This document shows positions 1,684-30,431 of a stretch of 38,851 nt of DNA, piece by piece. The position numbers and the translations under genes were made by a program. Numbering within the stretch: position 1 is the stretch's first letter; every line of letters starts with the position of its first letter. Origin of the DNA: Deltaproteobacteria bacterium (GTDB lineage Bacteria; Desulfobacterota; Desulfuromonadia; Desulfuromonadales; Geopsychrobacteraceae); contig JAADGW010000048.1 of NCBI GenBank assembly GCA_013152145.1, positions 1-38,851 of the forward strand, given 5' to 3'. The notes below the pieces were generated by a model. It did no database searches. It had not been told where the DNA came from and was given only the letters and a program-made list of their open reading frames with translations.

Positions 1684-1752
1684 TTTCAGACTCCTCTGTT
1701 TCGGCCTGACAAACAGTTTTTGTCAGCAACTATTGAGAACCTTAAACTTTCG

Positions 1753-1792
1753 GTAAACTATTCAGCCATCCATCGCGGCGCTGAATAGTTAC
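1753..1792. mobile_element. MITE-like palindromic element, copy 1 (short form, 40 bp)
   Basis: GTAAACTATTCAGC...GCTGAATAGTTAC terminal inverted repeats, flanked by a perfect 8-bp direct repeat AACTTTCG (1745-1752 and 1793-1800). Confidence 0.8.
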
Positions 1793-1800
1793 AACTTTCG

Positions 1801-2349
1801 TTAATCAGAAGTTTTCCGCCAATGATACGGTTCAATCGGCCGCAGTGACAGTCCCGACAGATAGCTTTTGGTTCCTGCGCCCTGCTTCTTTTCGGAATAA
1901 ACCGGGTAAATCCTGAACCTGGCCCGGGCCGGTTTCAGCTCGCTCGCAAAATAATCTTGATGAACCACCAGATAAATCAAGGCCTTGTCGTCAGTGTCGA
2001 AATACCAGCTGCCTTTTTCAACCTCGCCCGCATCCCGATGACTGACAGCGCCGATGTAACTTCTCGGCTTTTCCGCCAACAGGTCCATCGGGTTACTGTT
2101 CACCAGCTGTTGCAGGCCGACCATATTCCCGGCCAGAAAATGCCCGGCCACCTGCATACCGATCGCACTGCGCAGAGCACCCAGATCCTGTTCCACCGAC
2201 GTTCGTTCAACATCAACCAGCAATCGGTTGAAGCGATTCAGAGCAACCGCAATGAGAAGGCTGATGACGGTAATAACAATTAACAGCTCAAGAAAGGAGA
2301 AACCGCCATTCCCTACAATCGGCCTGTTTTTACCATAATGAGCTTTCAC
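1801..2349 (-). CDS. MSHA minor pilin (MshB-like position)
   Basis: 182 aa, NGG/FSFLELLIVITVISLLIAVALNRF prepilin motif; lies between mshG and the major pilin. Confidence 0.65.
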   Translation of the reverse strand: MKAHYGKNRPIVGNGGFSFLELLIVITVISLLIAVALNRFNRLLVDVERTSVEQDLGALRSAIGMQVAGHFLAGNMVGLQQLVNSNPMDLLAEKPRSYIGAVSHRDAGEVEKGSWYFDTDDKALIYLVVHQDYFASELKPARARFRIYPVYSEKKQGAGTKSYLSGLSLRPIEPYHWRKTSD

Positions 2350-2398
2350 TTATGAAGTATCCCTTAAGAAGACTAATTAATCAACTCTAAATTATCGC

Positions 2399-3622
2399 CT
2401 ATCTTGAAATACTGGACAAATTCCACATCGGCAGAAAAACACCGAGCGCCAGCACCAGCACCATGCCGCCGATAATGATGATCATGATCGGCTCGATGGC
2501 ACTGGAGAGATTCTTCAGGTCGTAGTCAACTTCACGCTCATAAAACTGGGCGACATCCTCCAGCATGGTATCGACGGCACCGGTCTCCTCACCGACGGCC
2601 AGCATCTGCAGTACCAGCGGAGTAAACATACCGGTCTGCGTAGCACTGCGGGTCAGGGTGTCACCACGCTCCACGCCATTTCTGATTTCCTCAATTTTTT
2701 CACCGACGTAAGTATTCCCAATCGCCCGAGCGGTAAATCCGAGCGCCTGGGTCAACGGCACACCGGCGCCGAAACTCATATTAAAAGCACGGGAAAAACG
2801 CACCAGGGTCGAACGCAGGATGATATCGCCGACCAGGGGCAATTTCAGCTTGTAGCGATCCCAGGCATAACGGCCCTGCCGGGTCTTCAGGACTTGCCTG
2901 ACAATAAAAAACAACGAAAAGACCAGACTAAGAACCAGCGGCCAGTAGCTCAGCATAAAATCTGAGATACCGAGCAAGATCCGCGTCGCCAGCGGCAACT
3001 CGGCGTGCAACCCGGCAAATACTTTTTCAAAGGCAGGGATGACAAACAGGCTGATAAAAATGATCGCAAAGAAAATGGCGATAATCACAAAGGTCGGGTA
3101 ACGCAGCGCTGACTTGACCCGGTTGATGGTGTCCTTTTCCCGCTCAAAATAAATCGCCAGCTGCCGAAACACATCATCAAGTTTACCGGTCGCCTCACCG
3201 ACCTGCACCAACCGACACAATAACGGGGGAAAGGCCTTGGGATGATTGGCAAAGGCACCGGAGAGTTCCTGCCCCCCCTCAAGACCTTCGACCACAGCGG
3301 CCAACGCTTCACCCAGCGTCGGGTTGCGGGCCGTTTCAACCAGCCCACGCAGAGCCCGGGTGATCGGCACTCCGGCGGTGGTCAGCGTGTACATCTGGCG
3401 ACAGAAAAGAATCAGATCGTCAAGCCCGACCTTGCTCCGCCGCCGGATTCTCAGCCGTTGGCCAAGCGGCAGGTCCTGTTTACCGGCGGTTTCGACAATC
3501 GTGATCGGGGTGACATGGCTGGCCTGAAACTGGCTGGCTACCGCCTCGGCAGAGATCGCCTCGACCTGCCCTTCGAGCAGCTTGCCGTCAGCATCTCTGG
3601 CTTTGTAATGAAAAAAGGGCAT
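2399..3622 (-). CDS. mshG: MSHA biogenesis inner-membrane platform protein MshG (GspF family)
   Basis: 407 aa; MPFFHYKARDADGKLLEG, duplicated GspF domains (AFANHPKAFPPLLCRLVQVGEATGKLDDV and TQTGMFTPLVLQMLAVGEETGAVDTML). Confidence 0.9.
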   Translation of the reverse strand: MPFFHYKARDADGKLLEGQVEAISAEAVASQFQASHVTPITIVETAGKQDLPLGQRLRIRRRSKVGLDDLILFCRQMYTLTTAGVPITRALRGLVETARNPTLGEALAAVVEGLEGGQELSGAFANHPKAFPPLLCRLVQVGEATGKLDDVFRQLAIYFEREKDTINRVKSALRYPTFVIIAIFFAIIFISLFVIPAFEKVFAGLHAELPLATRILLGISDFMLSYWPLVLSLVFSLFFIVRQVLKTRQGRYAWDRYKLKLPLVGDIILRSTLVRFSRAFNMSFGAGVPLTQALGFTARAIGNTYVGEKIEEIRNGVERGDTLTRSATQTGMFTPLVLQMLAVGEETGAVDTMLEDVAQFYEREVDYDLKNLSSAIEPIMIIIIGGMVLVLALGVFLPMWNLSSISR

Positions 3623-3633
3623 TTAATCTTCTC

Positions 3634-5427
3634 TCACAAAGTCGTGTCGGCCGGCTCCGCCGGGGCCGGGTTGAGCGCGGCTTTTTGTGCGGCCATGGTG
3701 GTTTCATCGATCTGCCCACCGATTCGCAGCACCTCTTCCATACTGGTCACCCCGTTGAGGGCCAATATCAGGGCATTCTCCGCCAGGCTGCGGAAACCCG
3801 GTTGCTGCTGAGCCAGTTCGGCAAACGCGGCACTATCGTTGTTGCGCAGGGCATTCGCCAACTCAAAATCAATTTCCAGCAGTTCAAAAATACCGATCCG
3901 CCCCGAATAGCCGGTATTATTGCAGGACGGACAGCCCCCCCCGGTCATGTATTCGGCCGCCGTCAGCGGCAGTTTCATCCGTCCGGCATAGCTTTCCAGC
4001 CAGTTACGACTGGCGGCATCGAGAGTATCGATCTTCTGGCAACTGGTACAGATCCGCCGGACCAGCCGTTGGGCCAGAACCGCACGCAGGGAACTGGCCA
4101 CCACGTACCCTTCAGTGCCCATTTCGACCAGACGCAGGGCGGTACTGACCGAATCGTTGGTATGCAGCGTCGAAAGCACCAGGTGACCGGTCATGGCAGC
4201 CCGCAGGGCAATATCACTGGTTTCCTTGTCACGCATCTCACCGACCATGACGATGTCGGGATCCTGCCGCAGTCCGGCGCGCAACACCCGGGCGAAATCG
4301 AGACCGATTTTCGGATGCACCTGCACCTGATTGATACGCGGCAGCCGGTATTCCACCGGATCTTCGACGGTGATGATCTTTTTCGTTTCCTGATTCAGCT
4401 CATTCAACGCACCGTACAGGGTGGTGGTTTTCCCGCTGCCGGTCGGCCCGGTGACCAACACCAGTCCATTGGGACGATGTAACTGCTTATGAAACCGGTC
4501 AAGCAACTCCGGCGGCATGCCGATCTGCTCCAACCTGAGGATTCCGCCCGATTGATCGAGCAGCCGCATAACCACCGCTTCACCATACTGCAGCGGCATG
4601 GTCGAAAGGCGGATATCGATACTCTTGCCTTTGACACGGATATTGAAACGGCCGTCCTGCGGCAGACGACGCTCCGAAATATCGAGTCCGCAGACCAGCT
4701 TCAGCCGCGACACCAGAGCCGGGGCAATCCGCTTCTCCTTCATCACCTGCTCATGGAGAATACCGTCGATCCGCTGGCGGATCCGCAACACCTTTTCATC
4801 CGGCTCGATATGGATGTCGGACGCGCCGACCTGAATCGCATCCTCGAAGAGAGACCGTAACAGGCGCACAACCGGAGCATCTTCGACATCGGCTTCGGCC
4901 AGCAGCTGGTCGAGGTTGCTGTCCCCCTGCGAAAGCTCCTCCCCCAGCTCTTCGGCAATGCTGACGATTTCCTGAGTCCGCCGGTAGACGATATCCAGCA
5001 CCTTGAGCAGTTCCGCCTCGTTGACAACCGCAATATCGATCGGGCGTTTAAGAATTTTCGCCAGTTCATCGTAGGCGTGAAGGTCGGTCGGATCAGCCAG
5101 ACCGACCAGCATGCGCTCATTTTGCAACGCCAGCGCGATAGCCCGGAATCGGCGGGCGGCGGTCTCCGGCATCAGCCGGACAACATCCGGCTGGTAGTTG
5201 TAGTGCTTCAGGTCGATGTACGGCAGATCCAGCTGGCTGGCAAGAAATTCGTGAAACTGTTGCGAGGTGACCAGATTCAGCTGCATCAGAGTATTACCCA
5301 GTTTGGCACCGGTTTTTTTCTGCATTGACAGAGCATGCAGCAACTGCTCTTCAGTGATGACGCCGCGGCGGACCAGCAGATCGCCGATCCGGATTTTTTT
5401 ACGTGGCGCAGGCTGTTCAGGTGTCAT
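3634..5427 (-). CDS. mshE: MSHA assembly ATPase MshE (GspE/PilB family) with MshEN-type N-terminal domain
   Basis: 597 aa; Walker A GPTGSGKTTTLY, Asp/His boxes, CxxC zinc motifs (CTSCQ, CPSCN); two N-terminal MshEN-like motifs. Confidence 0.92.
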   Translation of the reverse strand: MTPEQPAPRKKIRIGDLLVRRGVITEEQLLHALSMQKKTGAKLGNTLMQLNLVTSQQFHEFLASQLDLPYIDLKHYNYQPDVVRLMPETAARRFRAIALALQNERMLVGLADPTDLHAYDELAKILKRPIDIAVVNEAELLKVLDIVYRRTQEIVSIAEELGEELSQGDSNLDQLLAEADVEDAPVVRLLRSLFEDAIQVGASDIHIEPDEKVLRIRQRIDGILHEQVMKEKRIAPALVSRLKLVCGLDISERRLPQDGRFNIRVKGKSIDIRLSTMPLQYGEAVVMRLLDQSGGILRLEQIGMPPELLDRFHKQLHRPNGLVLVTGPTGSGKTTTLYGALNELNQETKKIITVEDPVEYRLPRINQVQVHPKIGLDFARVLRAGLRQDPDIVMVGEMRDKETSDIALRAAMTGHLVLSTLHTNDSVSTALRLVEMGTEGYVVASSLRAVLAQRLVRRICTSCQKIDTLDAASRNWLESYAGRMKLPLTAAEYMTGGGCPSCNNTGYSGRIGIFELLEIDFELANALRNNDSAAFAELAQQQPGFRSLAENALILALNGVTSMEEVLRIGGQIDETTMAAQKAALNPAPAEPADTTL

Positions 5428-5450
5428 TTGTCATCCTCAAAAAGTCATGG

Positions 5451-6896
5451 TTACAGGTTCTGCAACCGATCACGAATATAATCCTGCAGATCCGGACGCA
5501 AACCCGGCAGCAGCAGCGCCTGTCGATAGGCGGCCTTGGCCTTGGCATAAGCCCCCGCTTGATCTAAAGAGATCGCCAACCCCATCCACCAGAGCGATTC
5601 CTGGGGACGGTATTGCAGTAAGCGCATATAATTTTTCACCGCCGCCGAATGCTTGCCGACCTCCTGCTGCAAGGCCGCCAACAACGCATAGTATTCAAGA
5701 TCACTACCGATTTCAGGCCGTGGTTCGGTTTGCAGGATTTTTATCGCCTGCTCCTGCTGACCTGCGGCCAACAACTGCCGGGCATAGTTTTTACGCAGGT
5801 CAGGGTTGTCGGGGTGGAGCTGCAGACCGAGCTTCAGCTGTTTTTCCGCCTCACTCTGCCGTTGCAGCTTCTGCAGCAGCGCGATCAGCTGCAGGCGGGC
5901 GTCCAGCAAACGCGGCTGCAGGATCAGGGCATGCGACAAGGTCGCCTCAGCGGCGGGATAGTCTTTTCGTTGCAATAATTCGAGAGCTGACCGGTAAGCC
6001 TGCGCCGCCTGCTCTTCACGACTTACAACAGCCGTTTTTTTCTTTATCTTTTTCGCAGTGACGGAAACCTTTTTCGCTGCTTTATCCATCGCCGAAGCCA
6101 CATCAACCATACTCATCTGTCGTTCAGACTCGGAACCGACGGCCGGTTGCCGGGTATAAAACTCGACCAGCAGCCGCTGGCCGTGGAATTGATCCGCCGG
6201 TAACTTGAAGGTCTTCACCGCAAGCTTCCGGCTCAATCCAACCAGCAGCTGCAGACCCTCTTTTCCTGCCTGCAGACTGATCCGCTTGAGCAACGGCCCC
6301 TTTAACCGCGGAAGCTTCAAGGCCGCCCCCACTCCGGTCTTTTGAAACTGAATGCTCACCTGTTTGCCGGTTGGCCCCTGTAATTTCCAGAGATATTCGG
6401 GAAGCTGCTCAAATTCAAACAGCAAACGCGCTGAACCGATCGTTTCCAGAACTCCCAGGTTCAACAGCGTTGAGGCCGAATTGCCCGCGGCGACCTGCGA
6501 TGTTATCAGCACCGCCGGAGTCGGGGAGACCGGAGAGCTCGTCGCAGAGGATTTCGCTGCTGACGATTTCCTCCCGGGCGCAACCTGCTGCGGTACACCC
6601 TTCTCTTCCAGTGCGGCAAACAATTCCTGTCCCCGGACAATAGCAACCCGCTGCGACTGTTCATCCGCTGGGACCAGCCTGATCCCCGGTTTTGATATCA
6701 ACAAGTCCCGGGGGAAGAAATTCAGCCCGAACCAGATCAGTCCGATCAGCACCACTCCGCCGCCGATCATGATGATCAATCGCCGCGAAAAATTCCGCCG
6801 GCCGACCACAGCGGGCCGTTCACCACTCGGCAACGACCGACCATCCGTTTTGCGACGCTTTTCCAGGTCGCGCAACATCTGGTTGATCAGGCTCAT
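5451..6896 (-). CDS. mshN: MSHA biogenesis protein MshN (TPR)
   Basis: 481 aa; MSLINQMLRDLEKRRK start characteristic of MshN, one TM segment, C-terminal TPRs. Confidence 0.85.
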   Translation of the reverse strand: MSLINQMLRDLEKRRKTDGRSLPSGERPAVVGRRNFSRRLIIMIGGGVVLIGLIWFGLNFFPRDLLISKPGIRLVPADEQSQRVAIVRGQELFAALEEKGVPQQVAPGRKSSAAKSSATSSPVSPTPAVLITSQVAAGNSASTLLNLGVLETIGSARLLFEFEQLPEYLWKLQGPTGKQVSIQFQKTGVGAALKLPRLKGPLLKRISLQAGKEGLQLLVGLSRKLAVKTFKLPADQFHGQRLLVEFYTRQPAVGSESERQMSMVDVASAMDKAAKKVSVTAKKIKKKTAVVSREEQAAQAYRSALELLQRKDYPAAEATLSHALILQPRLLDARLQLIALLQKLQRQSEAEKQLKLGLQLHPDNPDLRKNYARQLLAAGQQEQAIKILQTEPRPEIGSDLEYYALLAALQQEVGKHSAAVKNYMRLLQYRPQESLWWMGLAISLDQAGAYAKAKAAYRQALLLPGLRPDLQDYIRDRLQNL

Positions 6897-7804
6897 AGCA
6901 ACGTCCTCAACAACAACAAGGTCGCCACGGCAACAACGATGATCGCACCTAGCTCGACAACAAAAGAATTCCCGCTGCCGGGTTCGGAAAGAGCCTGTTC
7001 TCCCCGGCTGTCTTTAATGGCCGCCACCACCAGAGACTTGTCGATCTGCTGCTGCCCCTTACCGTAAGCCGCGAGCAGGGATTTGTGGGCCAGCAGATTA
7101 ATCACTCGCGGTACCCCCTGACTGGCCTTGTACAGCAACCGCACTGCTGCCGGGTGAAACATCCCGGAGCCTTCGTAGCCGGCGACCTGCAGACGATGTT
7201 CGAGGTAACCGGCAACTTCCTGCGGCCGCAGTGTCGGCAAACGGTAGGAGTAGGTAATCCGCTGCCGCAACTGGCGCAAATCAGGCTGTGCCAGTCGCTG
7301 TTCGAATTCGGGCTGCGCAAAGAAAAAAATATGCAGCAGCTTCTCCTTCTCTGTTTCCAGGTTGCTCAGTAAGCGCAGCGCTTCCAGGCTCTGATACGGC
7401 ATCGCCTGGGCTTCATCGATCAGAACCACCAGCGGTCGGTTTAACTCGCGCAAACGGATCAACTCTTCAAGAATCCGCTGATTCAGATGTTGCACCGACG
7501 CCGCTGCCGGCACCTCAAGCTCCAGTTCACTGACGATCGCCTGATACAGTTCCCGGGGGGTCAGCAGGGGGTTGGGCAGGTAAACGGTGGCACAATCATT
7601 TTGCAGAACTTTCAACAGCTGCCGACAGAGCAGCGTTTTACCGGTGCCGACCTCGCCGATCACGCGGACGAACCCTTCACCGTTACGCAACGCCACCAGC
7701 AGCACATTCAGGGCTTCCTGATGACCACTGTAACGGTAGAAGTATTCAGTGTCCGGTGTCAGGGAGAAGGGTTTCTCCTTAAGGCCGAAAAACAGTTCGT
7801 ACAT
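6893..7804 (-). CDS. mshM: MSHA biogenesis AAA ATPase MshM (ExeA-like)
   Basis: 303 aa; MYELFFGLKEKPFSLTPDTEYFYRYSGHQEAL, Walker A GEVGTGKT, C-terminal TM. Confidence 0.88.
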   Translation of the reverse strand: MYELFFGLKEKPFSLTPDTEYFYRYSGHQEALNVLLVALRNGEGFVRVIGEVGTGKTLLCRQLLKVLQNDCATVYLPNPLLTPRELYQAIVSELELEVPAAASVQHLNQRILEELIRLRELNRPLVVLIDEAQAMPYQSLEALRLLSNLETEKEKLLHIFFFAQPEFEQRLAQPDLRQLRQRITYSYRLPTLRPQEVAGYLEHRLQVAGYEGSGMFHPAAVRLLYKASQGVPRVINLLAHKSLLAAYGKGQQQIDKSLVVAAIKDSRGEQALSEPGSGNSFVVELGAIIVVAVATLLLLRTLL

Positions 7805-7829
7805 GAATCAGATCCCATATGCTGACAAC

Positions 7830-9566
7830 TTAAGGCGACGGCTTTTTCTCCAGCCAACTGCGCTGAAATTGGGGAGCAATTCTATTGATCCGCCGCCGTG
7901 AAGCTTCAAGGCTGGCGGCCCAGTCTCCCGGGCTGCGAATGACTTGTGGACGGAGCAGAATCACCAGCTCACTCTTGCGGGAGCTGGATTTGGTGTGACG
8001 GAACAAAGCACCGATCCCGGGAAGCTTGCTCAAGATCGGCACACCGACCTCTTCGGTCGTGGTTTTTTCCTGCATCAACCCGCCGATAACCACCAGCTGC
8101 CCGCTACGGGCATGAACAACACTGTCCGACTCGCGCACCGTGCTGTATGCGACCGGAATCGTCTGGTTAACGCCGAAGACGTTAATTTCCTTGGTCTGAT
8201 CAATGACCTCGCTGACGGTCGGATGAATGTGCAGGGTAACCTGCCCGTCTTCGCTGATCTGCGGGGTCACATCGAGGGCAATCCCCGAGAAGAAAGGAGT
8301 CAGGGTCACATCCGTGGAATTGCTGGTGCTGGTGCCGGTGGTGGTATCACTGGAGATGTCGGTGACAAAAAATTCGTCGGAACCGACTTTGATAACCGCC
8401 TTCTGATTGTTGACTGTCGAGATGCGCGGACTCGACAGTACCTGCACATCCCCCTGACTTTGCAGCAGTTCGATAAAAGCCTGAAAGTCATTGAAGTTCA
8501 ACGCCAGACTGAACAGCCCACCGAACGCCAGAGCGTCCAGTCCATCGGGCAGAGTTTGACCCGGGGCCAGATTGCCGCTGTTACCCGCGGTCCCGGCAAC
8601 CCCCTGGGAGAACACCGAGCCGCCGCCGGTCTGGCCGACCAGAGCCGTCATACCATCCCGGTTTTCAGCCAGCGCCGCCCAATCGATGCCGGACTGAAAA
8701 CCGTCGGACAAGCTGACTTCGATAACCTTGGCTTCAATCACCACCTGCCGCTGCAGGTTGCGCTGAACCGTCTTCAGGTAGTCTCCGACCATCTGCAACT
8801 CATCCGGCATAGCGACCACCACCACGACACTGGCCTGTGGCTGAACAACGACCTTACGCCCGCCCTCGGTGCCGATCAGGTTCTCAACCGCGGTGCGCAA
8901 TCCGCCCCAGAAATCTGCCGTCGACTCAGTTTCGATGCTACTGCCGGAAACGGTTCCGGATTGGCCGGATTTGGAATCACCGGATGTCTTGTCACCGCTG
9001 CCGACCTGGGTAACCTGCCCGGAACTGACCCGGGTCTGCGACTTCCCCCTGCGGATCAGATTGATATAGTTGACCTGAAACGTCTGCGCCTGTAAACCGA
9101 TCGGCATCACCTGGTAAATAGTCCCGGTTTTAAAATATGGATAGCCGTAGACGTTATGAACAATCTCCAGGACCTCGGCAACAGTGGTGTTTTTTAAATC
9201 GATGCTGATTTTACCCTTGACGGCGGGGTGCACGACCATGTTGGCGCGGGTACCCGCGACCAGACTCATAAAAAACTCCTGCGCCGGTATCCCACTGGCG
9301 GCAATATCAAATTTCTCCGCGGCATCAGGTTCAGCTGCGGCGCTGATCTGACGAGCGGCCGGGATGAGCGCAGAGCGAACATCTGCCGGTGGCGGTGGAG
9401 GCGTCGCTTTGACCGCCGGCGGGATGGTGGGTGGGGCGACCAGAGCTTGATTGATCGATTCCAGGGGCTCCCCACCGCGCGGGGCCGGAGCACAACCGGC
9501 AACGAGCGACAGGCCGATCCCCAGAACAGCAAGTATCCCGGAGATTTTCAGCAACGACAATTTCAC
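7830..9566 (-). CDS. mshL: MSHA outer-membrane secretin MshL
   Basis: 578 aa lipoprotein (VAGC) with secretin core VLSSPRISTVNNQKAVIKVG and VVIGGLMQEKTTTEEVGVPILSKLPGIGALFRH. Confidence 0.92.
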   Translation of the reverse strand: MKLSLLKISGILAVLGIGLSLVAGCAPAPRGGEPLESINQALVAPPTIPPAVKATPPPPPADVRSALIPAARQISAAAEPDAAEKFDIAASGIPAQEFFMSLVAGTRANMVVHPAVKGKISIDLKNTTVAEVLEIVHNVYGYPYFKTGTIYQVMPIGLQAQTFQVNYINLIRRGKSQTRVSSGQVTQVGSGDKTSGDSKSGQSGTVSGSSIETESTADFWGGLRTAVENLIGTEGGRKVVVQPQASVVVVVAMPDELQMVGDYLKTVQRNLQRQVVIEAKVIEVSLSDGFQSGIDWAALAENRDGMTALVGQTGGGSVFSQGVAGTAGNSGNLAPGQTLPDGLDALAFGGLFSLALNFNDFQAFIELLQSQGDVQVLSSPRISTVNNQKAVIKVGSDEFFVTDISSDTTTGTSTSNSTDVTLTPFFSGIALDVTPQISEDGQVTLHIHPTVSEVIDQTKEINVFGVNQTIPVAYSTVRESDSVVHARSGQLVVIGGLMQEKTTTEEVGVPILSKLPGIGALFRHTKSSSRKSELVILLRPQVIRSPGDWAASLEASRRRINRIAPQFQRSWLEKKPSP

Positions 9567-9937
9567 GGCTGGCTCCCTTTCTTAACCCTCTCAAACGAGG
9601 ATATCTTTTTCAGACCGGTACCGGAGCGGTACAAAACGACCTGCTTCCGGTTATTCCGTAACAGGACTTTTTCCGGTTCTATCTTGACCAGTCTATAGCC
9701 ATCGAGCAGATCTCCCAGCTGCAAAGATTGTCCGTTAATCACCGCAACGGCACGATCCGCAGAAAGCAGAACTGCGCTTAACGACCAACTCCGCCGTTCC
9801 ACCTCGGCCTTTTTTTCGACAGCCGGAGCCTGATAACGGACCGGCCGCAGCGGGTCCTGTAATCGTCCCGTCTCCGCCGCCGACACCGGGCCACACAACA
9901 GCGCCAACAGGCAAAGTAGAGGCAATTTATTAACCAC
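9563..9937 (-). CDS. mshK: MshK-like protein
   Basis: 124 aa, signal peptide, LQDPLRPVRY ... AVINGQSLQLGDLLDGYRLVKIEPEKVLLR; position between mshJ and mshL. Confidence 0.75.
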   Translation of the reverse strand: MVNKLPLLCLLALLCGPVSAAETGRLQDPLRPVRYQAPAVEKKAEVERRSWSLSAVLLSADRAVAVINGQSLQLGDLLDGYRLVKIEPEKVLLRNNRKQVVLYRSGTGLKKISSFERVKKGSQP

Positions 9938-10595
9938 CGATCCACCCCCTGTTCAGGCTCAGCGTATAAACCTGCAGGCGAACCCTGGCCTGTGGGTATA
10001 CCTGAGTCTCGATTTCCAGTTTTTCCCAAACCATACCGCGTGGAAGCTCCTCGAGTTTGTTCAGATAGGCCAGAATTGCCAGATAATCGCCGACAAATTC
10101 GAGCCGCAGACGGTGGCGGTACAGAACCGGAGAGAGCGGATCTTCCGTAGCCCGTTCGTTGATCTGTAACGCTTCCGCCGGCAGGTTTTCCAGGCTGAGC
10201 AGCTGCAATTTCTGCTGCTGGGTGAGTAAATCTTTCAGCAATTCCGGCATCTCCTGCGGGGACACCAGATTAACCACGTTCGCCTCCAACTGCCGCTGGA
10301 TATCAGCGACTTCCGACTGCAATCGGGCCAGCTTCCGACGATTCTCCCGGTCGGGATCAAAATCCTTATGCGCTTCAACCAGCGTTTGTCGGGTGGTCAG
10401 TTCGGTCAACTCGATGCGCAACTCATTACTTTGCTTGCGGTCCCGCTTTTTACGCAGATCAAGCGGATTCATCACCGCGGTATCCCAGAGGAAAAACAGC
10501 ACCACCAGCAGGCAGACCAACAGTAAGATCCGCTCGCGGAGCGGTCGCGACTCATACCGGTGAATCAAGGATTGCAGGGAATGCAACGCCTTCAT
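9930..10595 (-). CDS. mshJ: MshJ-like protein (PilO-like)
   Basis: 221 aa, N-terminal TM, coiled coil, C-terminal PilO-like fold; position in cluster. Confidence 0.75.
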   Translation of the reverse strand: MKALHSLQSLIHRYESRPLRERILLLVCLLVVLFFLWDTAVMNPLDLRKKRDRKQSNELRIELTELTTRQTLVEAHKDFDPDRENRRKLARLQSEVADIQRQLEANVVNLVSPQEMPELLKDLLTQQQKLQLLSLENLPAEALQINERATEDPLSPVLYRHRLRLEFVGDYLAILAYLNKLEELPRGMVWEKLEIETQVYPQARVRLQVYTLSLNRGWIGG

Positions 10596-11199
10596 GGCCG
10601 CTCCTTGTCCGACGATTCAAGGCTGAAATCAACCTGCCCCGGCCGTTCCTGCAGGCGGGTCAGTTTCAGACGGGAAAAAACCTGGCCGCTCAAAACGCCC
10701 TTTTCACCGAGAAATTGCAGATACTGAGGAACCTGCTCCGGACGCATGGCGCTCCCGGCCAGCACCATTTTGCGACCGCTGCCATCCAGTTGAATCCGGC
10801 GCAACCAGACCCCCGGCTGAAGAGGTTCCGAGCTAACCCGTCGAGCAGATTAAGGATTCTCTCGTTACCCCCCTCTTCACGAACCGAAAAATATCCGAGT
10901 AACCGTTTCTGTCCTTCGAGGACACCTTCGGTACGCCGGACCTCCTCCTCAAGCAGGGCACTTTTCCGGCGCTCCGGATATTGCCGCTCCAACGTTGCGA
11001 CCTGCTCCGAAAGCCTGTCCTGTTGCTGCCGCAGCACAGCCAGCTGTTCACCGGCAGTGCGCATCTGCCAGAAGTTGAACAGACTCAGCAACGCCAGCAG
11101 GACCGAGAATAACAGCAGAATCAGTCCACCCTGCCGCAGCCGCAACGGCTCCGGTTTGTCAATCAAAACCGCCTGATAAAGATTGATCTGCTGGCGCAT
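10592..11199 (-). pseudogene. PilN/MshI2-like protein split by an apparent single-nucleotide frameshift
   Basis: ORF 10690..11199 carries the N-terminal part (MRQQINLYQ..., TM, coiled coil). ORF 10592..10804 in another frame carries the C-terminal part (LRRIQLDGSGRKMVLAGSA...LQFL). The span is 608 nt, i.e. one nt short of an integral codon number; a G5 run lies at 10810-10814. Confidence 0.75.
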
Positions 11200-12148
11200 C
11201 AGCCATCCTCCCGGCGCAACCGATCGCCAGCAGGTGACGGTTCAGCTCCAGTTGTTCGCTTCCCTCGGGGACGGTCATCACCGACGTAAAGCTGAACGGC
11301 TCAACCCGGGTCGTCAAGTAATCATCCAGATAGGTCGTGACCGCCGGGATTTCACGCTCGGACTGAGCCACCAGCAACCGCGAAACCATCGGCAGGCGGA
11401 AAGTACTTTCGCAATAATCGAAGCTGCGCTGAACTTCGAGCACGATCGAGTCAAGCTGTTCTGTCAGCGCTTCGTTGTCACCGTCGGCAAACGGAAGCAG
11501 CTCATTCATGCCGGAGGTCAGGTAGCGGGTCAGATAGTGGACTCCGTCCCGGACAATCGTCAGCAGTCCGCCCTGGTCCTGCAACAAGAGAATCGCCGTG
11601 CCACGGTCATCCTCGGTAAATAACTCGGCGATATTGCGCAGCGCAAACTCCGGAATATCAATGGCCAACGGCACCAGGTCAAGCTCCTGAAACAGCTCAA
11701 TCCGCTCACGCAGCAGGCTCTCCCGGGCGGCAACAACATACGTCAGCGGCCTGCTGTCACTGCCGAAAGGGACGACATCAAAGACATCGACGACAGCCTG
11801 TTCGACCGGGAACTCGAGCAGCTCACGGATCTGCCAGCGCGCTGCATCGCGCCGCTCCGCCGCCGGCAGTTGAGCCAGCTCGATCTGCATCAACTGGTAG
11901 AAATCAGGCGGGAGGACAGCAACCGCACTGTGTTTCTGCAGCTGCTGCTGACGAACCAGCGCTTTCAAGGCGTGAGTCTGGGCCTCCGGTGATTCAAACG
12001 GCTCCCAGGTTGCCTGCAGCAGAATCGGCAGGCTGCTTCTCTCACGCTGCACACAGACCATACTGCTTCCCGACTGCCGTTGACAGATGCCGACAACGTC
12101 TCCGCCCGAGCGGTTTTTTCTAGTCCAGAAACCCAGTTTCGCCTCCAC
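11159..12148 (-). CDS. mshI: MSHA biogenesis protein MshI (PilM-like); true start may be at 12136
   Basis: 329 aa; SVAVLPPDFYQLMQIE...; actin-like PilM/MshI fold inferred; first gene of the msh cluster. Confidence 0.8.
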   Translation of the reverse strand: MEAKLGFWTRKNRSGGDVVGICQRQSGSSMVCVQRERSSLPILLQATWEPFESPEAQTHALKALVRQQQLQKHSAVAVLPPDFYQLMQIELAQLPAAERRDAARWQIRELLEFPVEQAVVDVFDVVPFGSDSRPLTYVVAARESLLRERIELFQELDLVPLAIDIPEFALRNIAELFTEDDRGTAILLLQDQGGLLTIVRDGVHYLTRYLTSGMNELLPFADGDNEALTEQLDSIVLEVQRSFDYCESTFRLPMVSRLLVAQSEREIPAVTTYLDDYLTTRVEPFSFTSVMTVPEGSEQLELNRHLLAIGCAGRMADAPADQSLSGGFD

Positions 12149-12163
12149 CGGTTAAGGCTTTTT

Positions 12164-12269
12164 GTAACTATTCAGCAGGATGGCCTCGGGGTGCCCACTT
12201 CAAGGGTGGGTTCATGCGACCGTTGGAGTGGGCAGCGCGAGGTCAGCCATCGCGCCGCTGAATAGTTAA
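12164..12269. mobile_element. MITE-like palindromic element, copy 2 (long form, 106 bp)
   Basis: Perfect 12-bp inverted repeats TAACTATTCAGC / GCTGAATAGTTA; long imperfect internal stem; flanks GGCTTTTT (12156-12163) and GACTTTTT (12270-12277) match 7/8. Confidence 0.78.
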
Positions 12270-12335
12270 GACTTTTTTTGGCATGCACTAATATTACACA
12301 CAATTTACATTTATTATAGTTTAATAATCAATAAA

Positions 12336-12360
12336 AAAAGGCGGCACCAGGCCGCCTTTT
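12336..12360. terminator. Bidirectional intrinsic terminator downstream of the peroxiredoxin gene
   Basis: AAAAGGCGGC-ACCAG-GCCGCCTTTT, perfect 10-bp stem; A7 run on + gives a U7 tract on minus. Confidence 0.88.
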
Positions 12361-12409
12361 CTCTCAGACATAAATTCTAACCGCTCGGAAGCTGTAGAAT
12401 TTTTATTTT

Positions 12410-13012
12410 TTAGAGCTTTTCCGCCTCCTCCGCCAGGTAAGCGGCAACCCCCTGCCCGTCCGCAACCATGGCCTTATCACCCTTTACCCAACCGGCGGGG
12501 CAGACTTCACCATGTTTTTCATGGAACTGCAGGGCATCGATCATGCGCAACATCTCATCAATGTTGCGCCCCAACGGCAGGTCATTAACCACCTGATGAC
12601 GGACAACTCCGTTCTGATCGATCAGGAAGGAGCCGCGAAAAGCAACCCCCGCCGCATCAAACTCAACATCGTAAGACCGACAGATTTCATGCTTGACATC
12701 GGCAACCAGGGGATAGGTTACCGCACCGATACCGCCCTCAGCGATCGGTGTATTTCGCCAGGCAAGGTGCGTGAATTGAGAGTCGATAGAACAGCCGATG
12801 ACCTGGACCCCCCGCTCGGTAAAATCGGCGATCCGATGGCTGAAAGCGATCAGCTCAGTCGGACAGACAAAGGTGAAATCGAGTGGATAAAAGAACAGGA
12901 CGATATAGTTGCCCTTATAATCCGCCAGGCTGAAATTTTCGTTGATCGAACCATCAGCCATTACAGCAGTCGCAGTAAAATCGGGGGCTTGCTTGCCAAC
13001 AAGAACACTCAT
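12410..13012 (-). CDS. 2-Cys peroxiredoxin (AhpC/Prx family)
   Basis: 200 aa; FFYPLDFTFVCPTE peroxidatic motif, C-terminal GEVCPAGW resolving Cys. Confidence 0.93.
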   Translation of the reverse strand: MSVLVGKQAPDFTATAVMADGSINENFSLADYKGNYIVLFFYPLDFTFVCPTELIAFSHRIADFTERGVQVIGCSIDSQFTHLAWRNTPIAEGGIGAVTYPLVADVKHEICRSYDVEFDAAGVAFRGSFLIDQNGVVRHQVVNDLPLGRNIDEMLRMIDALQFHEKHGEVCPAGWVKGDKAMVADGQGVAAYLAEEAEKL

Positions 13013-13065
13013 CAGTCAAACTCCTTTCCTATTTGCAGATCGTTATGATCTCCTTGATTGCCGTC

Positions 13066-13093
13066 AGTCTATCGATTTAATAACGACTGTCAA
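13066..13093 (-). promoter_or_regulatory. Sigma70-like promoter for the peroxiredoxin gene
   Basis: Minus strand TTGACA (13093-13088), 16-bp spacer, TAGACT (13071-13066). Confidence 0.6.
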
Positions 13094-13100
13094 GGAAAAG

Positions 13101-13117
13101 ATGACCGTTTTGGTCAT
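13101..13117 (-). terminator. Probable terminator of xerC
   Basis: ATGACC-GTTTT-GGTCAT hairpin overlapping the xerC stop codon, followed on minus by CTTTTCC. Confidence 0.45.
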
Positions 13118-14016
13118 TTTTTCCGACTGCGGGGATGAGCCTGATCATAGACCTCGGCCAGATGGGCAAAACTGACCCTGGTGTACTTCTGGGTCGTCGA
13201 CAGCGATGCATGACCGAGCAACTCTTGAATAACCCGCAAATCGGCACCGGCATCGAGCAGATGGGTGGCAAAGGAATGGCGCAGGGCATGCGGGGTGACA
13301 TCGGTCGGCAGGCCGAGCAACAAGAGTCGCTTTTTCAGATTGCGCTGGATACTGCGCGCCGTCAGACGACCGCCCCGCTGATTGATAAACAACGGATCTT
13401 CAGCACTGAACGGACCCCGTTCTTCGAGATACTCCTGTAATGCACGGCAGGCCTGACGGCCGACCGGCAGCTGCCGCTCTTTCCCACCTTTCCCCAGCAC
13501 CCGGACGGAAGATTCGGCTAAACTGACCGCGCCGATATCAAGTCCGGTCAGTTCACTGACCCGCAACCCGCAGGAGTAGAGCAGTTCAAAAATCGCCAGA
13601 TCCCGCAGTATCAGCAGCCGTTTTCCCGGCAGGGGCCGATCCAATAGCTGACCGGCCTGTTCGGCACTCAGCACTTTCGGCAGATACTGTTCACGGCGCG
13701 GCGTCGACAAACCATCGGCCGGGGAGATCTGAAGTTCACCTTCGCGAACCAGAAAACGAAAAAAAACCCGTAGCGCCGAGAGCTTGCGGGCAACACTGGT
13801 CCGGCCGCAACCGGCATGCAGCCGGGCCAGATAGCGTCTGAGCAGCAACAGATCGATCCGCTCCGGCCAGTTTTCGGCAAAGTCGGAAAACTCCGCCTGC
13901 TGACGCAGAAAAAGCTGAAACTGGCGCAGATCACGCAAATAGGCCGCAACCGTCCGGGGCGACAGGTTGCGTTCAAGCGTCAGATGCTGTTCAAAACGCT
14001 GCAGCAGCTGGTCCAT
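13114..14016 (-). CDS. xerC: Tyrosine recombinase XerC
   Basis: 300 aa; N-terminal SAM-like domain, R...HALRHSFATHLL...LLGHASLSTTQKYTRV catalytic motifs. Confidence 0.9.
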   Translation of the reverse strand: MDQLLQRFEQHLTLERNLSPRTVAAYLRDLRQFQLFLRQQAEFSDFAENWPERIDLLLLRRYLARLHAGCGRTSVARKLSALRVFFRFLVREGELQISPADGLSTPRREQYLPKVLSAEQAGQLLDRPLPGKRLLILRDLAIFELLYSCGLRVSELTGLDIGAVSLAESSVRVLGKGGKERQLPVGRQACRALQEYLEERGPFSAEDPLFINQRGGRLTARSIQRNLKKRLLLLGLPTDVTPHALRHSFATHLLDAGADLRVIQELLGHASLSTTQKYTRVSFAHLAEVYDQAHPRSRKK

Positions 14017-14065
14017 CGTTCCTCCGGGCGGGCAGGTAAAAGCAACCGAATCGAGAGCTGATCAA

Positions 14066-14094
14066 TTGACGCTCACAGGTGAGCATGTCATACT
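14066..14094 (+). promoter_or_regulatory. Sigma70-like promoter with a perfect palindrome in the spacer
   Basis: TTGACG (14066-14071), 17-bp spacer, CATACT (14089-14094); GCTCACAGGTGAGC (14071-14084) is a perfect inverted repeat. Confidence 0.5.
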
Positions 14095-14188
14095 CTTGCA
14101 TCATATTGAGGCCTTTCCGGGAACCGTCAGGTGTCCTCTTGCAGAATTTCCAAAGACAGCTTCTTCTATCAGGAGAGAATCAATAACC

Positions 14189-15037
14189 ATGTGGTTTTTC
14201 TGGTCCACCCTGATTCCGAGCATATTCATTGCCTTTGTCACGATTAATCTGCTGATGGTCACTCTGAGTTATAGCATGTGCTGGTACGAGTATGCCAATG
14301 CCGACCCGCAGCTGCTCGACAAGCGGTTTCGCTGCCGCACGGTCCGCATGATTTTCTCGGTCATCACTCAGGAAACATTCTTCAACATCCTCACCCTGCT
14401 GGTTGTCCCTTTCGGCCTGCTCAACCCACGCAAACACCCCCAACTGCGTGGTGAAACCCCGATTCTTCTACTGCACGGCCTGTTCAACAATCGCGCCAGC
14501 TGGTTCTGGTTTAAATGGTCGCTGCGTAAACAGGGGTTCAACAATATTGCCACCATCAACCTCTCAGCCTGGCATAACGAAGAGGCCCTCACCGAACTGG
14601 TGGCAAAGAAGGTGGATGAGCTGAGACATCGGCTCGGGGTCAACAAGGTACACCTGATCTGCCACTCGATGGGTGGGATTATTGGCCGCAATTATATCCA
14701 GCTCCGCGGCGGTGCCGACAAAGTCGACCGCTGCATCTGCCTCGGCGCGCCTCATCTGGGATCAAAACTGACCCCCTTTGCCCTCTCCCCTCTCAGCCGG
14801 GTGCTGGTGCCCGGCTCCGACTTCCTCCGGCGGCTGAATGCGGCTCCCATCCCGGAAGAGGTCAAGATGACCAACATCTTCACCCGCAAAGACAATATGG
14901 TGCTGCCCAACAGCAATGCCCAACTGCCATGGGGCGATGCCGTTGAGCTGGACAACATGGGGCATACGGCACTGATCTATCGTCGCCCGGCGCTGGTCGC
15001 CGTCTGTGCAGCACTGCAGAAACAGGAGACGACATGA
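14189..15037 (+). CDS. Alpha/beta hydrolase (lipase/triacylglycerol-lipase-like), membrane-anchored
   Basis: In-frame ATG at 14189 with SD AGGAGAG; N-terminal TM segments; LLLHGLFNNRASW and nucleophile elbow CHSMGG; C-terminal GHTALI. Confidence 0.8.
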   Translation: MWFFWSTLIPSIFIAFVTINLLMVTLSYSMCWYEYANADPQLLDKRFRCRTVRMIFSVITQETFFNILTLLVVPFGLLNPRKHPQLRGETPILLLHGLFNNRASWFWFKWSLRKQGFNNIATINLSAWHNEEALTELVAKKVDELRHRLGVNKVHLICHSMGGIIGRNYIQLRGGADKVDRCICLGAPHLGSKLTPFALSPLSRVLVPGSDFLRRLNAAPIPEEVKMTNIFTRKDNMVLPNSNAQLPWGDAVELDNMGHTALIYRRPALVAVCAALQKQETT

Positions 15038-15432
15038 TCCTCGAGCTGCAGATCGAAACCGAACACCAGGTTCAGCTTTGCGAGATCACCCACGAAGTGC
15101 AGCATGCGGTCACCAGGGCTGCGATTAAGGAAGGGCTGGCAGTATTGTATGTCCCACACACCACCGCCGCTGTCACCATCAATGAAAACGCCGACGTGGA
15201 CGTCTCCATTGACATGGTCAACGGGCTCAACCAGCTGATCCCGCTGCAGAACCGCTATCGGCACCTGGAAGGGAACAGTGCGGCTCACATAAAAAGCAGC
15301 CTGATCGGTACCAGTGAACAGCTGATTATCCGCAACGGCAAACTGCTGCTCGGCACCTGGCAGGGGATCTACTTCTGTGAGTTTGATGGTCCGCGCAAGC
15401 GCAAACTGCACATCAAACTGCTCGAAGGCTAG
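15034..15432 (+). CDS. YjbQ/UPF0047 family protein
   Basis: 132 aa; VLYVPHTTAAVTINENAD and TWQGIYFCEFDGPRKRKLHIKL family signatures; ATGA overlap with the preceding gene. Confidence 0.9.
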   Translation: MILELQIETEHQVQLCEITHEVQHAVTRAAIKEGLAVLYVPHTTAAVTINENADVDVSIDMVNGLNQLIPLQNRYRHLEGNSAAHIKSSLIGTSEQLIIRNGKLLLGTWQGIYFCEFDGPRKRKLHIKLLEG

Positions 15433-15438
15433 CTACCG

Positions 15439-16602
15439 GTGTCCTCCACTGCTTGTGCCGCCGCTGAGCGCGTCTCGTTACAATCCCTCACGAGCTACCA
15501 ACCGACAGCCGTAAAAGCCGCCCTGGAGCAGTTACTCGAGCCGCTCGGAGGGATACGGCAGTTCGTTAAGCCCGGCCGGAAGGTTCTGCTCAAACCCAAC
15601 CTGTTAGCCGGCAAACCTCCCGAGAAGGCGGTCACCACCCATCCGGAAATTGTTCGCGCCGTCATCGAACTACTGCAGGCGGCCGGCGGCATCGTCAGTG
15701 TCGGGGACTCCCCCGGTATCGGCAGCCCGGAAAATGTCGCCCGGAAAAGTGGTATTCTCGACGTGATAGAGGCAACCGGTGCCCACTTTGCCCGGTTTGA
15801 AACATCGGTTAAAATCCGTCCGCGCGGCGGGACCTTTCAAGAGTTGGAAATCGCCCAGGACATTCTCGATGCCGATATTATCATCAACCTGCCGAAGCTG
15901 AAAACTCATCAGATGATGGGCCTGACCTGTGCGGTGAAGAACATGTTCGGTGCGGTGGTCGGCTTGCGCAAACCACGTCTGCATCTGCAGGCCGGCACCG
16001 ACAAAAGCTTTTTTGCCCTGATGCTGCTGGAACTCTGTGAACAGCTGGCGCCGACCCTGAATATTGTCGATGCGGTGATCGGCATGGAGGGAGAAGGCCC
16101 CGGCAGCGGCACCCCGGTACAGCTCGGGACACTGCTGGCCGGCAGCAACGCACAGGCGGTAGATACGGTCGCCACCGAGCTGGTCGGAATGCAACCGCAC
16201 CAGGTCTGGACCCAGCGAAAAGCGCTCGACACCGATCGCCCTTACACCAGAATCGCTCAATTGGAACTGCTGGGAACCTCGCTTGAGGAGCTGCGGGTCG
16301 ACAATTTCAGGCCGGCCAAGACAACCGATGTCAACTTCGGCCTCAAAGGCCCGCTGAAAAATTATCTGCGGCATTCGATCACGGCCCGACCGGTGGTTGA
16401 TCCGAACCTTTGCAGACTCTGCAACGACTGCGTCACTCACTGCCCGCCGGAAGCAATGAAGATAGAAAACCAGCGGTTGCAGATCGATTACGACCGCTGC
16501 ATTCGATGTTTCTGCTGTCAGGAATTATGTCCGCACGGGGCACTCTTCACCCGACAGGGTCTGCTCTTGAAGTTACATAGTTTTTTACACGGAAAACTGT
16601 AA
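15439..16602 (+). CDS. DUF362 domain protein with C-terminal 4Fe-4S ferredoxin domain
   Basis: 387 aa; KPGRKVLLKPNLL, LPKLKTHQMMGLTCAVKNMFG, CRLCNDCVTHCPPEAM and CIRCFCCQELCPHGA cluster motifs. Confidence 0.88.
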   Translation: MSSTACAAAERVSLQSLTSYQPTAVKAALEQLLEPLGGIRQFVKPGRKVLLKPNLLAGKPPEKAVTTHPEIVRAVIELLQAAGGIVSVGDSPGIGSPENVARKSGILDVIEATGAHFARFETSVKIRPRGGTFQELEIAQDILDADIIINLPKLKTHQMMGLTCAVKNMFGAVVGLRKPRLHLQAGTDKSFFALMLLELCEQLAPTLNIVDAVIGMEGEGPGSGTPVQLGTLLAGSNAQAVDTVATELVGMQPHQVWTQRKALDTDRPYTRIAQLELLGTSLEELRVDNFRPAKTTDVNFGLKGPLKNYLRHSITARPVVDPNLCRLCNDCVTHCPPEAMKIENQRLQIDYDRCIRCFCCQELCPHGALFTRQGLLLKLHSFLHGKL

Positions 16603-16630
16603 CCGTAAAAAAAAATGCGCCGCTGAAGTC

Positions 16631-17365
16631 TCAGGACTTGAGCTGGAGCAGATAATCGTCAGCCAGCTCGGCAATCGCGGCAACCTGCATGCGACTGTTG
16701 TTGATCAGCAGATGGTAGAGCAGCGGATCGTCGATCTTCTCATCCGCAAAACGTTCCAGAAAATCATCCCGCTGTTTCTGGTGCAGGTCGATGAACTTCT
16801 CTGCCTCGGCCTGTGTCAGGTGATGACCCTGGACAATCTTCCTCACCCGGAAATCATAAGGGGCAAACAGACGTAAGTGGATACAATTCGCCAGATCCTG
16901 CGTCGCTAATACGGCCCCGCCACCGACCAATACGCAATGACCGCGCTTGGCAAAACCGCGGATGACGTTGCGCAGGTGGGTGAAGACCTCCGTCTCTTCG
17001 GCGCGGCTGTTGTCCAGAAACATCGGGAAAATTGCTTTCAGTGAGGAGGGGGTATCCTGGGATTTTTCGATCTGCGCAACAGAATAACCGGACAGCTTGG
17101 CAACCTCACTCAACAGCTCCCGGCCGACAACCACCCAAGGCTCTCCCGTGGTGCGCTTATTGAGACGTTGGACCAGAGCTTCTGCCACGGGATAAGCCTG
17201 ACAGCCGAATTCCCGCGCAACGGTGAAACATACCCCCGGTTTCTGCTGACCGGGAATCTGTTGCCTTTTGTGCCATGCGAGAAGTTTAGCTTCCTGTCGC
17301 GGAGTCCAAAAGTTCATGCTCACCATAAACTGCCCCCTTTCTAGCTGGAAGAATCGATGTGACAA
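16631..17365 (-). CDS. Cytidylate kinase-like family protein (likely start ATG at 17326)
   Basis: 244 aa; REFGCQAYPVAEALVQRL, VLVGGGAVLATQ; purine-rich AAAGGGGG just upstream of the internal MVSMNFW start. Confidence 0.75.
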   Translation of the reverse strand: MSHRFFQLERGQFMVSMNFWTPRQEAKLLAWHKRQQIPGQQKPGVCFTVAREFGCQAYPVAEALVQRLNKRTTGEPWVVVGRELLSEVAKLSGYSVAQIEKSQDTPSSLKAIFPMFLDNSRAEETEVFTHLRNVIRGFAKRGHCVLVGGGAVLATQDLANCIHLRLFAPYDFRVRKIVQGHHLTQAEAEKFIDLHQKQRDDFLERFADEKIDDPLLYHLLINNSRMQVAAIAELADDYLLQLKS

Positions 17366-17380
17366 AAAGGAACCGATGTT

Positions 17381-17520
17381 GTAACTATTCAGCCGGATGG
17401 CCTCGGGGTGCCCACTTCAAGGGTGTCTGTCGCCTGGATGGCGACAGTCAAGCCCCATGGATGGGTTCATCCCTTGGAGTGGGTAGCGCGAGGTCATCCA
17501 CCGCGCTGCTGAATAGTTAT
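17381..17520. mobile_element. MITE-like palindromic element, copy 3 (long form, 140 bp)
   Basis: TAACTATTCAGC (17382-17393) / GCTGAATAGTTA (17508-17519); internal stem homologous to copy 2; extra nested hairpin CTGTCGCC-TGGAT-GGCGACAG (17427-17447). No clear TSD. Confidence 0.75.
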
Positions 17521-17547
17521 GTTTAAATTATAGCGGCTGTCGCATAA

Positions 17548-17570
17548 TTTTCCGGGATTCTCCCGGAAAA
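17548..17570. terminator. Hairpin, possible second terminator
   Basis: TTTTCCGGG-ATTCT-CCCGGAAAA, perfect 9-bp stem. Confidence 0.45.
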
Positions 17571-17573
17571 AGA

Positions 17574-17603
17574 AACAGCCCCGACATTTCTGCCGGGGCT
17601 GTT
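17574..17603 (-). terminator. Intrinsic terminator of the Met-rich protein gene
   Basis: AACAGCCCCG...CGGGGCTGTT, 10-bp perfect stem, followed on minus by TCTTTTTCC. Confidence 0.75.
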
Positions 17604-17627
17604 AAGGGTCATTTTCAGGATGTGCGG

Positions 17628-18098
17628 TTATTTGTTCTCATAATGCATGTGGAAGACCCGCTTCTTACCATCAGCCAGTTTGGTGCCGATCTTGAAGTGG
17701 TACGATCCCTTCTGGTCGAGGGTCAGGTCGACACCGAACTGGCCGCCCATTCCCATCATTTTTTTTGCGCTGCTCACCTTTCCGTCGGGAGCTTCAATCT
17801 TGACCGCGACCTGCCCTTTGCTGACCTTTTCCCCCGCGTCCGTCGTAAAACCGACCATCAGGTGATGGGTCGTCGACATGCCGTTCTCGGCCATCTTCGC
17901 CTTGACATCCATCAGATGGGCCGAAGCCGTGATGCCGTCAACCTTACTGCCCTGCAGCATGACCATATTACTGCCCATCGGCATACTGCTCCCACGACTC
18001 ATCTTGCTCATGTCGCCATCCATCATTTTCATCGCCATAACTGCGGCGGGAATCATCAACAGCGCGACCATCATCAACACAAAAATCTGCTTTTTCAT
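17628..18098 (-). CDS. Small secreted Met-rich protein, putative metal-associated
   Basis: MKKQIFVLMMVALLMIPAAVMA signal peptide followed by MKMMDGDMSKMSRGSSMPMGSNMVMLQG; SD CGGAGAA upstream of 18098; downstream of cusA-like gene. Confidence 0.75.
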   Translation of the reverse strand: MKKQIFVLMMVALLMIPAAVMAMKMMDGDMSKMSRGSSMPMGSNMVMLQGSKVDGITASAHLMDVKAKMAENGMSTTHHLMVGFTTDAGEKVSKGQVAVKIEAPDGKVSSAKKMMGMGGQFGVDLTLDQKGSYHFKIGTKLADGKKRVFHMHYENK

Positions 18099-18260
18099 TG
18101 TTATTCTCCGTTCATAATTTAGGTTGTTACTGAAAGATGTCTCCGGCTTTACCCACTGCAAAACCGCAAAAGACTGATTCATTGACCATCAAAACGAGTG
18201 TGAAAGTTTCGGGGACTACTGTCAGCAAACCGTATCCCGAGGTTAAATGGTACCTTCCTT

Positions 18261-18302
18261 GTAACTATTCAGCAGCGCGAGGCCATCCTGCTGAATAGTT
18301 AC
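18261..18302. mobile_element. MITE-like palindromic element, copy 4 (short form, 42 bp)
   Basis: GTAACTATTCAGCAG...CTGCTGAATAGTTAC perfect 15-bp inverted repeats, flanked by a perfect 8-bp direct repeat CCTTCCTT (18253-18260 and 18303-18310). Confidence 0.82.
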
Positions 18303-18321
18303 CCTTCCTTTCCCGCCAGGT

Positions 18322-29285: not shown

Positions 29286-30431
29286 TCAGTCCAACGCCTG
29301 GGCGAGATCGGCAATCAGCTCGTCAGGTTCTTCGAGGCCGACCGACAAGCGCAGCAGGCTGTTACAGATTCCCAGTCGTTGCCGTTCGGCTTCAGGGATA
29401 TCACCGTGGGTCTGGACTGCCGGCAGGGTCATCAGCGACTCAACCCCGCCGAGACTTTCGGCAAAGGAGATCAGTTGCAGCTTTTCAAGTATCTGTTCAG
29501 CCAGCTCCGGGCCGGCAACCCGGAAAGAGAGCATCCCACCAAAACCATCAGCCTGTTGTTTGCTCAATTCGTGCCCCGGATGCTCTGCCAGACCGGGATA
29601 ATAGACGCTGTCCACCTGCGGTTGCCGCTGCAACCAGTGCGCGACCTGCAGCGCGCTGGCAGAGTGCCTCTGCATCCGTAACGGCAGCGTTTTCAGACTG
29701 CGGATCAGCAACCAGCAATCCTGTGGGGACAGGATCGCACCGGTGGAGTTCTGCAGGAAATAAAGCCGCTCACCCAAAGCTTCATCTTTAGCCACCAGGA
29801 CCCCGGCACAAAGGTCGCTGTGCCCGCCCAGATACTTGGTCGCCGAATGCACAACGATATCCGCCCCCAGCTCCAGGGGCCGCTGCAACACAGGCGTCAG
29901 GAAGGTGTTATCAACGATAAAGAGCAGCCCGGCCGCTTTGCACAAATCACCGAGGGCCCGGATATCCGCAATCCCGAGCAGCGGATTGCCCGGTGTTTCA
30001 ACCAGCAGAGCCTTGGTCTTCGCGGTCACTGCCGCCGCAACCGCGTCGGTCGCGGTCGTATCGACATAAGAGGTGCTGACCCCGAGCTTGGCGAAAATCT
30101 GGTCGAGAACCCGGTAAGTGCCACCGTAAAGATCTTCGGACACCAGCAGGTGATCACCACTGGAAAAATGCAGAAACAACGAGGTCAGAGCGGCCATCCC
30201 GGACGAAAAGGCCAGACCCCGCGCGCCGCCCTCAAGTTCGGCGAGTGCTTCTTCCAGAATATCGCGGGTCGGATTGCCGCTGCGGGTGTAATCGTAACCG
30301 GTGCTCTGTCCATGGCGGTAGGTGGCACTGTGATAGATCGGAAAACTGATCCCTCCGGTTTGCTCATCGCGACCGACGCCGATCTGCACACTGCGGGTGG
30401 ACAGGCTGTTTCTGACGATTCTGGACATCAT
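29286..30431 (-). CDS. Trans-sulfuration PLP-dependent enzyme (cystathionine gamma-synthase/lyase family)
   Basis: 381 aa; YDYTRSGNPTRDILEEALAELEGG, VVHSATKYLGGHSDL PLP lysine motif; preceded by a SAM riboswitch. Confidence 0.9.
   Translation of the reverse strand: MMSRIVRNSLSTRSVQIGVGRDEQTGGISFPIYHSATYRHGQSTGYDYTRSGNPTRDILEEALAELEGGARGLAFSSGMAALTSLFLHFSSGDHLLVSEDLYGGTYRVLDQIFAKLGVSTSYVDTTATDAVAAAVTAKTKALLVETPGNPLLGIADIRALGDLCKAAGLLFIVDNTFLTPVLQRPLELGADIVVHSATKYLGGHSDLCAGVLVAKDEALGERLYFLQNSTGAILSPQDCWLLIRSLKTLPLRMQRHSASALQVAHWLQRQPQVDSVYYPGLAEHPGHELSKQQADGFGGMLSFRVAGPELAEQILEKLQLISFAESLGGVESLMTLPAVQTHGDIPEAERQRLGICNSLLRLSVGLEEPDELIADLAQALD

Follow-up and report, generated by a model that had tools for sequence, protein, structure and literature searches.

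The DNA examined here, a stretch of 38,851 nucleotides that we call the window, contains four short palindromes that share the same ends. Are these hairpins ordinary regulatory repeats, or were they placed there by a transposase, and if so, by which one? A sequence-only reading of the same DNA had favoured transposition and proposed that the palindromes are IS66-derived non-autonomous elements that encode no protein. It had found no transposase in the window, and it suggested searching for target duplications at further copies in the genome, for empty orthologous sites, and for an IS with matching termini in the lineage. We put at about 0.93 the probability that the hairpins are copies of a non-autonomous MITE, the 13-bp ends of which are recognised by an IS66 transposase of a single-gene clade acting in trans.

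Four MITE copies in the window

A pattern search of the window for GTAACTATTCAGC at up to two mismatches gave nine matches, when shuffled sequence would be expected to give 0.36. Eight of the nine form four end pairs, i.e. the four MITE copies listed in Table 1. The sequence-only reading was thus right about the four hairpins and their common ends, which measure 13 bp, apart from a 1-bp insertion in the left end of copy 1 (GTAAACTATTCAGC). It was also right about the repeats that flank these elements, which are perfect over 8 bp at copies 1 and 4 and match at 7/8 positions at copy 2. Copy 3 lies between CCGATGTT and GTTTAAAT and shows no target duplication. Copy 2, in which little is left of the two central hairpins, is 38 bp shorter than the full form. 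All four copies are located between likely genes and none has a gene of its own, in line with the claim that the elements encode no protein. Elsewhere in the window, positions 30529-30654 (-) match a SAM riboswitch (Rfam RF00162, 67.7 bits), located upstream of an ORF at 29286-30431 (-) whose product looks like a cystathionine gamma-synthase-type enzyme.

Table 1. MITE copies in the window, with their target duplications and the structured core of the near full-length copy.
Feature	Position	Strand	Evidence
Target duplication left of copy 1	1745..1752	.	AACTTTCG, sequence
MITE copy 1, 40 bp, deletion derivative	1753..1792	.	ends; empty site in G001, G006, G003
Target duplication right of copy 1	1793..1800	.	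AACTTTCG, sequence
Target duplication left of copy 2	12156..12163	.	GGCTTTTT, sequence
MITE copy 2, 106 bp	12164..12269	+	ends; empty site in G007, G003, G001, G008
Target duplication right of copy 2	12270..12277	.	GACTTTTT, 7/8 vs GGCTTTTT
MITE copy 3, 140 bp (full form 144 bp), with the entire structured core	17381..17520	+	
Structured core of copy 3, closing stem and two hairpins	17411..17483	+	
Target duplication left of copy 4	18253..18260	.	CCTTCCTT, sequence
MITE copy 4, 42 bp, deletion derivative	18261..18302	.	ends; ~20 close genomic relatives of this size
Target duplication right of copy 4	18303..18310	.	CCTTCCTT, sequence

Copy number, target duplications and empty sites

The genome to which the window belongs (2.71 Mb in 294 contigs, 86.6% complete) has 344 ends matching GTAACTATTCAGC at up to one mismatch, of which 204 are exact. 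The reversed pattern, used as a control at the same threshold, has no match in this genome. Forty contigs chosen blind to the element, totalling 280 kb, contain 17 paired elements, which corresponds to approximately 165 per genome, and the MITE load of this genome is about 165-170 elements. Their sizes range from 35 to 152 bp, with no coding capacity.

If copies across the genome had no duplications, transposition would be hard to defend. In a sample of 70 elements (the statistics describe this sample, not the whole genome), the flanks are perfect 8/8 duplications in 33 and match at 7/8 in 16; if flanks were paired at random, 0.49 and 0.27 elements, respectively, would be expected. Flanks shifted by 1-20 bp gave no 8/8 repeats, i.e. 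the duplications are exactly 8 bp long and lie exactly at the ends. The perfect ones are A+T-rich (67% vs 44% for the genome). Insertions are mostly intergenic: 50 out of 58 elements have most of their length outside long ORFs, when 84% of random positions fall inside.

The sister species provide the empty sites that the sequence-only reading had asked about, for two of the four window copies. The site of copy 2 is empty in four genomes of the same genus (Table 1), and the window from which copy 2 and one duplication are removed aligns without gaps with G007 around this position. Copy 1 has an empty site in three genomes. The intergenic region of G002 orthologous to that of copy 4 is highly diverged. 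We discarded G009 as a control for copy 2, as it has a full-length MITE of its own ~25 bp from the site, which seems to have inserted independently. The region of G008 orthologous to that of copy 1 (L311) carries a different insertion of ~150 bp that lacks MITE ends.

A series of deleted forms

The sizes of the elements cluster at 35-43, 53-59, 69, 102-106 and ~144 bp. A single internal deletion of a full copy, with at most three mismatches, accounts for 27 of the 41 short copies, and in 23 of these 27 the breakpoints fall at repeats of 1-4 bp. The parents of the 69-bp copies differ in core orientation, hence the same deletion recurred. Within the IS66-MITE reading, the shortest forms (35-42 bp) might have another history: they could be mobile and amplified as such, instead of having been deleted in place. 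The 42-bp form is present around 20 times in the genome, with copies that are 88-100% identical and in several cases have perfect duplications, as expected if this form moves. Against this stand the recurrence of the 69-bp deletion in parents of different core orientation and the distance of 42 bp between the ends, which would be sterically hard to join. We take mobile short forms seriously but lean away from them. The natural series from 144 to 35 bp, in which both ends and often the duplication are kept, could be used to test the minimum length of a DDE-transposable element and the way in which palindromes decay.

An old structured core and unrelated counterparts

The full-length MITE has 144 bp and forms a long stem with two central hairpins, as deduced by aligning 22 copies taken from nine genomes. 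Copy 3 has a predicted folding energy of -89 kcal/mol (z-score of -10.5) and scores 83.3 bits against the core model. Of the cells in the core alignment, 97% are paired, with changes on both sides in 10 of the 24 pairs, and pairing drops to 30-55% when the partners are slid. Such compensating changes are not by themselves proof that the fold is selected, because the arms of a palindrome can be copied from one another during repair. Of 136 genomes searched within the order, the core model matches at least 45, which belong to seven families (up to 34 candidates were scored per genome), and the core is much older than the species of the window.

We considered other identities for this core. It has no Rfam match above threshold that would make it a known RNA. 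An independent repeat is also excluded by its distribution in the window's genome, where 29 of the 35 core matches have both ends, six have one recognisable end and none has neither; in other genomes, some copies that seemed to lack ends turned out to have decayed ones. Frequent flipping of the core was rejected as well, since only 2 of 29 full-length copies are flipped. Cores flipped relative to the outer arms are found at L034:6995-7138 and L006:1232-1375, and in some copies both arms have been made alike.

The same type of ends can enclose other sequences. Across the order, IS66-type ends are found on palindromic cores that fall into at least four groups unrelated in sequence; the elements mostly total 134-157 bp. 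For example, the same 13-bp ends flank unrelated palindromic interiors in elements of 151 bp (L212-L214, L216, L217 and L232, from G008, G004 and G001), 140 bp (L219-L223, from G009) and 134 bp (L242 and L253, from G048), with duplications that are mostly 7-8/8. Since the interiors are unrelated, the ends alone seem sufficient for recognition. Three different MITE variants lie in tandem at L231:2574-3057 (G021), with the same 8-bp AAATAATG between neighbours, a pattern that would suit either repeated insertion into one target or a circle-like intermediate.

The core could also be active instead of mere filler: it might form a hairpin or an RNA on which replication, transposition or tolerance by the host depends, and different cores might be exchanged between the same ends. 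The similar lengths of unrelated cores and the two-hairpin fold maintained by compensating changes would fit this idea, which we consider unlikely. Thanks to the conserved fold, selection on MITE cores and their mere copying could be told apart by direct tests.

A probable IS66 partner and its relic

The genome G009, from the same genus, encodes an element of 1723 bp (L078:1330-3052) with ends, GTAACTATTCAGTA and GTAACTATTCAGCA, that match those of the MITE. It has a single ORF of 472 aa and lacks the accessory genes tnpA and tnpB, presumably the layout of the single-gene IS66 subgroup of the ISBst12 type. The protein matches PF03050 (DDE_Tnp_IS66; E=3.9e-46, 158 bits vs a cut-off of 23.1) and also DUF6444. 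Its nearest named plasmid match is ISGka4 of Geobacillus, with 36% identity. The duplication around the L078 element is only 6/8 (GAATTTCT/GCTTTTCT), which counts against the IS66-MITE reading, although those of its close relatives L081 and L082 (below) are perfect. A database scan with this protein retrieved 80 loci from many phyla. In most of the 56 loci examined, the gene lies between two GTAACTATTCAGC-like sequences at a distance of ~1.7 kb from each other, and 20 of the 56 have GTAA-starting ends together with perfect 8-bp duplications. For example, L081 (protein 89% identical) is flanked by GATTGGTG and L082, from a Desulfuromonadales genome (85% identical), by CTTGTTTT, both perfect. 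The lineage thus has an IS with matching termini, in the same genus as the window, and a large related IS66 clade around it.

The proposed link with IS66 is supported, with one correction. Ends and duplications match those of IS66 elements, but the MITE is not a simple internal deletion of the L078 IS, because BLAST found no significant similarity beyond the ends, the only part common to both. Furthermore, the MITE core is absent from the IS66 elements at all 53 loci searched for it.

The window's lack of a visible transposase extends to its genome, which, at 86.6% completeness, has no intact IS66 transposase of the L078 clade. A search for the IS66 domain in this genome returned nothing. A direct protein search revealed one relic (L263, G000:C249:2696-2815) of 111 bp with 87% DNA identity to the L078 gene and one in-frame stop, which looks like a fossil of the partner's transposase gene. 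Reduction of the partner to this relic would explain why no transposase is seen in the genome. IS66 transposases are also missing from two other MITE-rich genomes, G021 (99% complete) and G028. The case of G021 suggests that genomes may commonly lose the partner once the MITE has amplified. The absence of an intact transposase from the window's genome and from G021 is, with the missing duplication of copy 3, a point against our reading.

These MITE-rich genomes devoid of an IS66 transposase might instead indicate that another enzyme, from a different DDE family or of the REP-type Y1 kind, happens to use the same ends. We regard this as very improbable, since the IS66 clade closely matches the MITE in its ends and 8-bp duplications. 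Two large end-to-end pairs inspected in the window's genome as candidates for a full-length IS (C67 and C80) each proved to be two separate MITEs that enclose ordinary genes and no other transposase. As for Y1 transposases, they leave no target duplications. That the hairpins are ordinary REP- or terminator-like palindromes acting in transcription or mRNA stability, and not transposable, would agree with their being strong hairpins that all lie between genes, but it is scarcely credible, because exact 8-bp duplications at the ends and empty orthologous sites contradict such an origin, and IS66 elements have identical ends. The same duplications and empty sites support the transposition put forward by the sequence-only reading. 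Once inserted, copies may have a secondary role as terminators.

We therefore retain the IS66-MITE reading and suggest the following course of events. An IS66-family transposase of the single-gene clade would recognise the 13-bp ends GTAACTATTCAGC. This enzyme would act in trans on the MITE, as we infer from the insertions, duplications and matching ends, which are themselves observed. Insertion into A+T-rich, mostly intergenic targets would produce the 8-bp duplication. The full form of ~144 bp is predicted to fold into a long stem with two hairpins, and this palindrome would then break down by deletions at short repeats into forms of 106, 102, 69, 54, 42, 39 and 35 bp, in which both ends and, in many cases, the duplication would be preserved. 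The autonomous partner was probably once resident, and would now be either lost or missing from the incomplete genome, save for the 111-bp relic.

Comparison with known elements

Our literature search, with most subscription papers outside its scope, returned neither the end sequence of the MITE nor a description of an IS66-derived MITE, which is not proof of novelty. We did not find the MITE in phage records. The family is new and its kind is known, with the Geobacter and Pelobacter repeats and Chunjie compared by description only. It is unusually abundant, old and structured.

The elements of the window resemble the IS66 family (single-gene type) in their GTAA-starting ends and 8-bp duplications; the latter are listed for IS66 elements (PMC3281130). 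Their partner has the DDE_Tnp_IS66 domain, as in this family. Unlike IS66 members, which carry genes, the MITEs carry none, and the partner clade lacks the accessory tnpA and tnpB that the family usually has.

Among elements of related bacteria, Chunjie, a MITE of Geobacter uraniireducens (Chen et al. 2008, in PMC10969869), is also described as having size variants and being mostly intergenic. By this description it differs in size, with 178-235 bp against 144 bp for the MITE of the window. For genomes of Geobacter and Pelobacter, there are also catalogues of multicopy intergenic palindromes (PMC2700814, PMC2996986, PMC3543383). Like our MITE, these palindromes form families of repeats between genes, in genomes related to that of the window; the portions of these catalogues that we draw on present them as multicopy or putative regulatory repeats, without a link to IS66, and some of the catalogues may include the present family. 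Our results would link an abundant class of intergenic palindromes in the order with a single transposase clade, which allows repeats that could be read as regulatory to be annotated as insertions. The ERIC elements of enterobacteria (PMC10969869) belong to a different host group and are likened here by description, not by sequence: like the MITE of the window, they are short, palindromic, intergenic, present in many copies and spread across a whole group.
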